Position numbers and translations under genes: made by a program. A stretch of DNA of 64,000 nt from a virus. Shown piece after piece: positions 1 through 1,957 of this stretch. The notes under the pieces were generated by a model that saw nothing but the letters and a program-made list of their open reading frames with translations, did no database searches and was not told where the DNA came from. The number at the start of each line of letters is the position of its first letter. Within the stretch, counting starts at the first letter, position 1. The DNA lies in the IMG/VR virus record IMGVR_UViG_3300009370_000018, positions 1 to 64,000 of that record. The stretch is one strand, 5' to 3'.

Positions 1-26
1 GATCCGCCTAGTCTTGGTAGTGCCAT
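1..26 (-). CDS. 5' end of a gene cut by the window edge (predicted tape-measure/hub protein)
   Basis: On the minus strand an ATG at 26-24 directly follows the TAA of the short ORF behind gp26 (stop at 29-27), so the two genes abut as TAAATG. Only MALPRLGG can be read before the window ends, so homology cannot be judged. The gene immediately downstream of a frameshifted tail-assembly chaperone pair is normally the tape-measure protein; in T4-like phages that would be a gp29-type hub/tape-measure protein. This assignment is inference from position only. Confidence 0.4.
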
Positions 27-209
27 TTATCTTGCCGTCCTTTTCATTTTATCTTCTTGGGCTTTTGCTTCTTCGTTCTTTTTTTCTATATGTCTTTTCA
101 GTAGTTCTATGTATATTTCTCTTTCCCAGGGCATCATGTCATCAAGTTCTGTAAGGCTGTACTTATGTTCTTGCATTAATATAAAATTGAGATCATAATA
201 GTTCTTCAA
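27..209 (-). CDS. Short ORF in the -1 frame of gp26; probable frameshift extension of a tail-assembly chaperone
   Basis: This 60-residue frame has no convincing start of its own. Its first possible codon is TTG at 209, with no Shine-Dalgarno sequence ahead of it, and the first in-frame ATG is at codon 12. The frame stays open upstream to the T TTT TTT heptamer at 239-233 near the end of gp26. A -1 slip there would add eight residues (YIGLSHDS) and then this segment, giving a fusion of about 309 aa. The segment is helical and charged, with an MMPWEREIYI motif near residues 25-34. Short W/E/R-rich tails of this kind occur in the T part of lambda gpG-gpGT and in P2 gpE-E' chaperones. Independent translation from TTG is the alternative. 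The frame relation is seen directly; the chaperone role is inferred. Confidence 0.6.
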   Translation of the reverse strand: MKNYYDLNFILMQEHKYSLTELDDMMPWEREIYIELLKRHIEKKNEEAKAQEDKMKRTAR

Positions 210-226
210 TGAATCATGAGAAAGCC

Positions 227-955
227 CTATGTAAAAAAATTCTGCAACCCTTCCACCTCCACGGTATCTTCGTATTTACAGTCTGTGCATTTAAATTTAA
301 TGTCTTGTTTTATCTTTGGCATCGTGTCAAAAAACAATTGAATTTTCCCAAACTGCTCTTCTGTCATGTCAGATAAAAACTCTTCTAATTCTTTGGGTGT
401 GTAGTCGGATGAACTATAGGTGTTATCGGCATCATATATTTGTTCTATACATTCTCCTATCATATTAAAGACTGTGGTCATTTCTGATTGGCCATTAGTG
501 CTATCAATAGAGTTGATTTTGGGATGTTTCATTAGAACACCAATGTCTTTTGTTAGTTTTATTTTTGGATTATGATTTTTGTTTTTTATAACTTTCGTCT
601 TGGTTAAGTCAACTTCAATTTCGGTTTGATTTTTTGCAGGTTTGTTATCATTTTTTGGACACTCTTGATGCCTAAAAAGCAGTCTGACTTTTTCACCTAC
701 AGACTTAGACCTAAGTTGTAAGAAAAAATATTCAATATCAAACAAAGGCAATTCATCTATCTTGATGTTTTCTGTCAGGCAACAGTTTGATAAAATTTGT
801 GTTAGTGCACCAACGGTTTCTTTTTCATCCTCTCCTTCATGGGCAATCATTAATATTTTTTGTTCTTTGACTAGGAATGGTCGGTATTTAATTGTCTGTC
901 CGTTTGATGGAAGCTCCAATTCATATTCAGGTGCATTCAGTTTAGGTAAAGCCAT
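227..955 (-). CDS. 26: T4 gp26-like baseplate hub / tail-assembly chaperone
   Basis: This 242-residue protein resembles the T4 gp26 baseplate family found in marine T4-like phages; T4 gp26 itself is about 208 aa. It opens with MALPKLNAPEYELELPSNG, followed by a helical core. Paired cysteines near residue 99 (HQEC) and at residues 223 and 226 (CTDC) may form a zinc-ribbon-like fold that closes the chain just before the stop. A good ribosome-binding sequence (AAGGAG) lies upstream, between the end of gp54 and the ATG at 955. The gene ends at a T7 slippery run, so it probably makes two products: this short form and a longer form carrying the -1 frame segment. That is the arrangement of tail-assembly chaperones that coat a tape-measure protein. 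Family assignment is by recall. Confidence 0.75.
   Translation of the reverse strand: MALPKLNAPEYELELPSNGQTIKYRPFLVKEQKILMIAHEGEDEKETVGALTQILSNCCLTENIKIDELPLFDIEYFFLQLRSKSVGEKVRLLFRHQECPKNDNKPAKNQTEIEVDLTKTKVIKNKNHNPKIKLTKDIGVLMKHPKINSIDSTNGQSEMTTVFNMIGECIEQIYDADNTYSSSDYTPKELEEFLSDMTEEQFGKIQLFFDTMPKIKQDIKFKCTDCKYEDTVEVEGLQNFFT
233..239 (-). promoter_or_regulatory. Predicted programmed -1 ribosomal frameshift site (T TTT TTT)
   Basis: Seven consecutive T residues on the minus strand lie in the correct phase for a canonical X XXY YYZ slip: the third base of AAT followed by codons TTT TTT. In the zero frame gp26 stops two codons later (ACA TAG). In the -1 frame there is no stop until position 27, after the helical segment. 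No strong downstream stem-loop or pseudoknot was evident by eye. Confidence 0.6.
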
Positions 956-976: not shown

Positions 977-1957
977 TTAAAATAATGATGCAAATTTGTT
1001 TCTAATTGCGATTTCGTTTCCGCTAACTGCCTCTGGACGGAAATTACGAGACGCAGTTTTCATCCATTCTGGTAATGAATCTGTATATAGATCAACCTTT
1101 TCTAGGGTGTCGGCTGTCCAACTTAGAAAGTCGGCCAAGGAGGGACCTTGTTCTGTTTCTTCATCTTTGGCTGAATCTAGAATGTTTCTATACCCGGTAA
1201 CATTTTGTGCTACCCATTGTCTGTATGTAAATGTTACGTCTAGCCTCATGATTTCGTTTTGCGTTCCCCAGTCTAGCGCAATAGGTTGAATGTTCATAGG
1301 ATAGGCATTATACAATTTTATTTTATGGGTTGCATATAAGCCTGTTTTTACAGCTTCCATAAAATCGTCAGATATACCTTTTGCAAAGGCGTCTATGTGC
1401 GCTTGCTGATCAGGAGATAAGGTTCCACGTCCTCGATATGGACCCTCTACTTGTCCTCCTTGGGCCCAAGACTTGGAAGCCTTTTTATTGTATTGTCTGG
1501 CCGACTCTGTGCTCTGTGGTGAGTAGCAAGTAATTTCTATAGGGTGGGTATACTCATCATAGAATCTCCATTCGTTTTTGCTTTTGCTGTGAATTAGATT
1601 TTGCCAAGCATCAAAGAATTTTCTTTCTGTTAAATTGACACGACAATACATTGACACTTGAAGCTCATCATATATTGATTGATAGGGCATCTTGCGAATT
1701 GGGCCGTATGTATTGATTTCGTTTGTGGCAAAATGTCTACCTGATAGAACGGCCCGATTGCATAAAAACATTAGATCTTTTTCAAACCCATCGAATTGTC
1801 TGTCGCCAACTATTGCATTGGCTGGTTTTTTTATTTCTAGGGTCCAGAGTGAGGGAACTGCAAACCCTAACGGCGCCTTGGCTTTGAAATCGTCTATATT
1901 TGGGTCGTGAGGATAGGCATCTTTAAAAGCTGACTCAGGTAATATTCTTTGTGGCAT
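977..1957 (-). CDS. 54: gp54-like baseplate tail-tube initiator
   Basis: T4 gp54 (320 aa) sits with gp48 on top of the baseplate and starts polymerisation of the gp19 tail tube. This protein is 326 aa. Its C-terminal half has the tube-protein-like stretch YNAYPMNIQPIALDW followed by an IMRLDVTFTYRQW strand, which is typical of tube-fold proteins where a beta-strand sequence ends in FxYRxW. The N-terminal part carries EFTEST-like tube-fold strands (FLCNRAVLSGRHF). It lies between an unassigned gene and gp26, and T4 also clusters its hub and tube-cap genes. The ATG at 1957 overlaps the end of the preceding gene by 23 bases. A gp48 assignment was considered, but the plus-strand gene at 3108 fits gp48 much better. 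Confidence 0.7.
   Translation of the reverse strand: MPQRILPESAFKDAYPHDPNIDDFKAKAPLGFAVPSLWTLEIKKPANAIVGDRQFDGFEKDLMFLCNRAVLSGRHFATNEINTYGPIRKMPYQSIYDELQVSMYCRVNLTERKFFDAWQNLIHSKSKNEWRFYDEYTHPIEITCYSPQSTESARQYNKKASKSWAQGGQVEGPYRGRGTLSPDQQAHIDAFAKGISDDFMEAVKTGLYATHKIKLYNAYPMNIQPIALDWGTQNEIMRLDVTFTYRQWVAQNVTGYRNILDSAKDEETEQGPSLADFLSWTADTLEKVDLYTDSLPEWMKTASRNFRPEAVSGNEIAIRNKFASLF

Follow-up and report, generated by a model that had tools for sequence, protein, structure and literature searches.

Phages lambda (gpG/gpGT) and P2 (E/E+E') produce a short and a long chaperone: ribosomes slip by -1 close to where the short gene ends, and this gene is situated between the tail-tube and tape-measure genes. 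The order of tail tube, chaperone and tape measure is the V-G/GT-H order of lambda, and the lambda slip site is G_GGA_AAG. Frameshifting in dnaX makes use of an upstream stimulator. For T4-like phages, the tail assembly chaperones were reportedly identified by Vladimirov, Gautam and Davidson (Virology 2022), whose abstract is said to name T4 genes 26 and 51 and to describe frameshifting as conserved in several T4-like groups.

T4 gp26 and gp51 have been listed as hub assembly chaperones, and gp51 is needed for assembly yet missing from the particle (PMC3004832). Sullivan et al. reported that the gp51 of cyanophages is only ~20% as long as other gp51 proteins, to which it is alike at the C-terminal part (PMC3037559). 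A search for a frameshift in gp26 of T4-like phages and cyanophages found no paper directly, and the prior work came to light through references cited in PMC10885494 and PMC12846349. The PRFect paper (PMC10885494) cites Vladimirov, Gautam and Davidson (Virology 2022, 566:9-15) for some T4-like phages that, in place of frameshifting, have one short gene and one long, fused gene, and the phage Adele paper (PMC12846349) cites the same work for poly-T -1 signals in T4-like TAC-N genes. As far as these citing statements go, the work of 2022 concerns the same genes (26 and 51) and the same short and long forms, and nothing essential differs from the locus described below. The first-pass annotation, which was not aware of such a frameshift as standard annotation for T4-like gp26, missed this earlier identification of the T4-like chaperones. 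Since the T4-like chaperone forms were published in 2022, the main finding is known in kind and the present locus is a further example.

The locus lies at the start of a stretch of viral DNA of 64,000 nucleotides (the window), which begins at base 1 of an IMG/VR record of 68,395 bases. A gene at 955..227 on the minus strand encodes a gp26-like protein of 242 aa, the putative short form of the tail assembly chaperone (TAC-N). The gene belongs to the T4 gp26 family PF12322 (T4_baseplate); in a profile search its product scored 199.1 bits against a curated cut-off of 24.5, with residues 9-241 aligned over positions 2-218 of the 219 in the profile. The protein also matched phrog_150 "baseplate hub" (E=2.6e-65). 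The -1 frame that overlaps the end of the gene matched positions 60-120 of the 121 in phrog_634 "baseplate hub assembly catalyst", the gp51 family (E=4.8e-25), and in addition the tail end of phrog_150 (positions 236-279 of 282, E=3e-5); some members of the gp26 family therefore hold the extension in one chain. The best identity to cultured phages is 43%, and the phage is a T4-like, Kyanoviridae-related, divergent marine member.

Read from the sequence and its open reading frames, the 3' end of the gene is CAG AAT TTT TTT ACA TAG. The heptamer T_TTT_TTT (minus strand, 233..239) is in the X_XXY_YYZ phase that a tandem -1 slip needs, and a single sense codon, ACA, separates it from the zero-frame TAG stop that ends TAC-N (227..229, minus strand). 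The -1 frame (27..233, minus strand), termed "gp51" in the annotation of relatives and the putative C-terminal part of the long form (TAC-C), comprises 68 aa past the slip and a TAA stop at 29..27. The codons past the slip, TAC ATA GGG CTT TCT CAT GAT (the stretch YIGLSHDSLKNYYDLNFILMQEHKYSLTELDDMMPWEREIY), read YIGLSHDS and onward. Past the in-frame stop that precedes it, this frame offers a single start, a TTG at 209, for which no ribosome-binding match was found (best 2 of 6). An ATG at 26..24 abuts the TAA and opens the next gene (1..26, minus strand), the expected tape measure, which is cut by the contig end; because the window and the record share their first base, about 8 codons are present and the gene is unreadable here. 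The in-phase heptamer at the end of gp26, the open frame through YIGLSHDS to position 27, the TTG as sole start without a ribosome site and the TAAATG junction had all been described in the first-pass annotation, and each is found as described.

Runs of seven T occur 13 times in the window (both strands), as against 30.1 +/- 7.1 in dinucleotide shuffles. Such runs are thus rarer in the window than the shuffles lead one to expect. A run of seven T carries little meaning alone, and it is the conservation that exceeds chance. Related gp26 loci were compared, as had been proposed earlier. Among 80 relatives of 36-71% identity from an IMG/VR scan, T_TTT_TTN is present in phase near the gp26 stop in every one, as is a homologous open -1 frame; 3 of the 80 are cut by a contig end. 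The heptamer was further observed at the gp26 end of six of the eight cultured phages examined, namely S-SM2, Melnitz-3, HTVC008M, Vibrio Va3, Delftia PhiW-14 and Sinorhizobium phiN3. Taken together, T_TTT_TTN occurs in 87 of 89 IMG/VR and cultured loci, or in 33/35 once loci more than 80% identical are removed (the non-redundant set), and its spread includes Kyanoviridae, Melnitz, HTVC008M, Sinorhizobium phiN3, the Vibrio Va3/KVP40 group and Delftia PhiW-14. For the residues encoded and at the observed codon usage, all 33 loci would be slip-competent with a log10 probability of -12.9, an optimistic value because lineages are counted as independent despite shared descent. The base that follows the six T is A in 16, C in 8, T in 6 and G in 3 of the 33 non-redundant loci; it is therefore the six T that are kept, while the seventh position is free. 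Relatives that lack a slippery run had been named beforehand as evidence against a frameshift. The heptamer is present in 87/89 loci, but the Ackermannviridae and an Aeromonas group, discussed below, are without it.

The -1 frame itself behaves as a coding sequence. Its dN/dS is 0.10-0.11 between the window and the two closest relatives and 0.05 between those two, and no stops occur over 58 codons, whereas each of the other frames has 6-8 stops and is without such constraint. These substitution patterns indicate purifying selection on the -1 frame. The locus combines a slippery heptamer with a conserved, protein-coding -1 extension, two of the features of a frameshifted tail assembly chaperone.

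We consider it very likely that 955..227 is the chaperone gene of a T4-like tail and that a slip on T_TTT_TTT yields a short and a fused long form. The majority of ribosomes would terminate at the TAG and release the gp26 short form (TAC-N). A fraction would move back one base on T_TTT_TTT, probably aided by an upstream Shine-Dalgarno-like stretch, and would read the -1 frame, so that a single fused protein (TAC-NC) with an added helical domain of ~68 residues would result. By analogy with lambda gpG/gpGT, the tape measure would be coated by both forms, which would also bring in tail-tube subunits. The direct basis consists of the sequence, its conservation, the selection on the -1 frame, the similarity in fold and the order of genes, from which we infer the slippage, its rate and the chaperone action. 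The frameshifted-chaperone reading of the first-pass annotation is upheld by the conserved slip site and -1 frame, selection, relatives without a start, the fold and a tape measure in relatives.

The extension could instead be a separate small gene, a short "gp51" with its own start or with re-initiation past the gp26 stop. Public records annotate it so, with starts inside the segment; the window has the TTG at 209, and an early ATG, GTG or TTG is possible in the -1 frame of 16/33 non-redundant loci. In the other 17, however, the interval between the preceding in-frame stop and the end of the conserved LSHDS motif holds no such codon; a separate gene therefore could not make the motif there, while a frameshift can. 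The candidate starts are mostly without a ribosome-binding site, and conservation of the frame begins with the very first codon past the slip. A short gene with a clear own start had been put forward as a finding that would speak against the frameshift; possible starts do occur in about half of the loci, mostly lacking a ribosome-binding site. In addition, T4 gp51 has the segment fused, and a separate gene leaves the conservation of the heptamer unexplained. We regard this explanation as improbable.

The same fused product would arise if RNA polymerase, rather than the ribosome, slipped on the T run and added one T to the transcript. The window does hold seven consecutive T, and an extra base gives the same frame; in 27/33 non-redundant loci, however, just six T are followed by A, C or G, and a run of six T is short for polymerase slippage. 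The codon phase of the T run is fixed, and the Shine-Dalgarno bias upstream points to the ribosome, which leaves the polymerase a marginally smaller chance than the separate gene. That chance or an assembly error is responsible, a homopolymer miscall having cut one gene into two, is least credible of all, at a negligible probability. Homopolymer runs are prone to errors, but the break is at the identical position in 80 contigs and in finished genomes of cultured phages, and the six T precede four different bases. The conservation of the break across contigs and cultured genomes refutes a miscall.

The proposed slip by the ribosome would probably be assisted from upstream. A Shine-Dalgarno-like stretch, GGAGGTGGAAGGG (248..260, minus strand), has a synonymous-shuffle z of -3.4 at the window locus, and its AAGGG ends 8 nt 5' of the heptamer. 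Over 33 loci, synonymous codon choice next to the slip favours anti-Shine-Dalgarno pairing (mean z -1.64; 58 control offsets within these genes give 0.00 +/- 0.18). These codon patterns make the stretch a probable stimulator of the slip, resembling the upstream stimulator of dnaX, and the codon bias upstream of the slip is possibly unreported before. No structured RNA was found downstream of the slip, where folding does not exceed that at other positions of the gene (mean z -0.35); this is a point against the frameshift reading.

Comparison with T4 relates the two forms to known genes. T4 gp51 carries the -1-frame segment in-frame, and its C-terminal end aligns with the -1 frame of the window; T4 gp26 ends RGLKEFFELL, at the place that corresponds to the slip. 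With a short gp26 and a gp51 that consists of the same domain plus the extension, T4 thus appears to hold both forms as two genes, and these genes, 26 and 51, are divergently transcribed. T4 would therefore obtain without frameshifting, from two genes, what related phages make from one. In the divergent marine phage of the window and ~80 related contigs, gp26 and "gp51" would accordingly be one chaperone gene read in two frames. The frameshift would also account for the cyanophage gp51 being ~80% shorter than T4 gp51 (PMC3037559).

An AlphaFold2 model of the gp26-like protein of the window, built with 23 relatives in the alignment, has a pLDDT of 86.7. In VIA-align, residues 1-86 of the model match the HK97 tail assembly chaperone 2ob9 with Z 7.7 and an rmsd of 3.8 over 84 residues, at 8% sequence identity. 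The other matches are 3fgx (8.0), 3klu (7.4) and 5ir0 (5.2), and the first clearly unrelated row has Z 3.2. Foldseek against the PDB gave nothing at E <0.001 (a weak match at E 0.96), and a sequence search of solved structures gave no relevant match (best E 0.11). A search of a viral structure library returned gp26 proteins from many myophages. On the basis of the model, the N-terminal domain of gp26 is predicted to fold like the HK97 chaperone, relative to which gp26 carries an additional domain of ~150 residues. The first-pass annotation had called the locus an analogue of the gpG/gpGT chaperones; the same job is supported, but the shared HK97 chaperone fold suggests a relation closer than that of an analogue.

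As far as the window and two relatives show, the gene order agrees with that of other frameshifted tail assembly chaperones. Directly upstream of gp26 is a gene of the tail-tube family (977..1957, minus strand), which matched phrog_45 "tail tube" (E=3.4e-32) and PF23849 Phage_TTP_2 (E=1.2e-6). Downstream, evidence comes from relatives. In the related contig L003, the gene in the next-gene position matches tape-measure PHROGs weakly (best 6e-8). HTVC008M has one small gene between the chaperone and the tape-measure gene, which is annotated as putative tape measure and matches tape-measure PHROGs at 8e-12. The earlier assignment of the next gene as the tape measure is supported in these two relatives; the copy in the window is cut off. 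Lambda gpG/gpGT would have both the -1 slip and the gene order in common with the present locus and differs in the slip site, which is T_TTT_TTN here and G_GGA_AAG in lambda.

Two groups retain the -1 extension without the heptamer. The Ackermannviridae, represented by Det7 and 15 relatives (L086:5001-5965, L091-L105), have no T6 heptamer. Clades of 70% DNA identity share their longest exact match within the gene, 32-35 nt, across the junction ATTTTCATTTAATTTTTGAAATTG, suggesting a conserved slip signal of another kind. In the Aeromonas TSW001 group (L090:3989-4941, L108), the extension follows CTTTTCACTGT before the stop. TSW001 and L108 have ACTTTTCACTGT in common 5' of the stop, inside an exact match of 41 nt that is the longest over the 3' part compared. 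Just past the stop is a possible conserved hairpin, CCCCTC...GAGGGG, read by eye. TTTTCA is common to the Ackermannviridae and Aeromonas junctions and would permit a single-codon slip from TTC to TTT, which we offer as a lead; these groups may use a different slip site. It is conceivable, at slightly less than an even chance, that the type of slip site changed along the lineage. In most T4-like phages the site would then be T_TTT_TTN, with a Shine-Dalgarno-like stimulator upstream, as in dnaX, and without structure downstream, and the Ackermannviridae and the TSW001 group, with their -1 extension lacking the heptamer, would use a single-codon slip at TTTTCA, perhaps aided by the hairpin in the Aeromonas group.

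We also note that most records still split the locus into a "baseplate hub" gene and an "assembly catalyst" gene, and the start given for the latter would be wrong. Examples are GU071095, MZ577098, NC_020484 and NC_028945, where two genes stand for the long form; the internal start of the second annotated gene in those records omits the conserved first residues of the extension.
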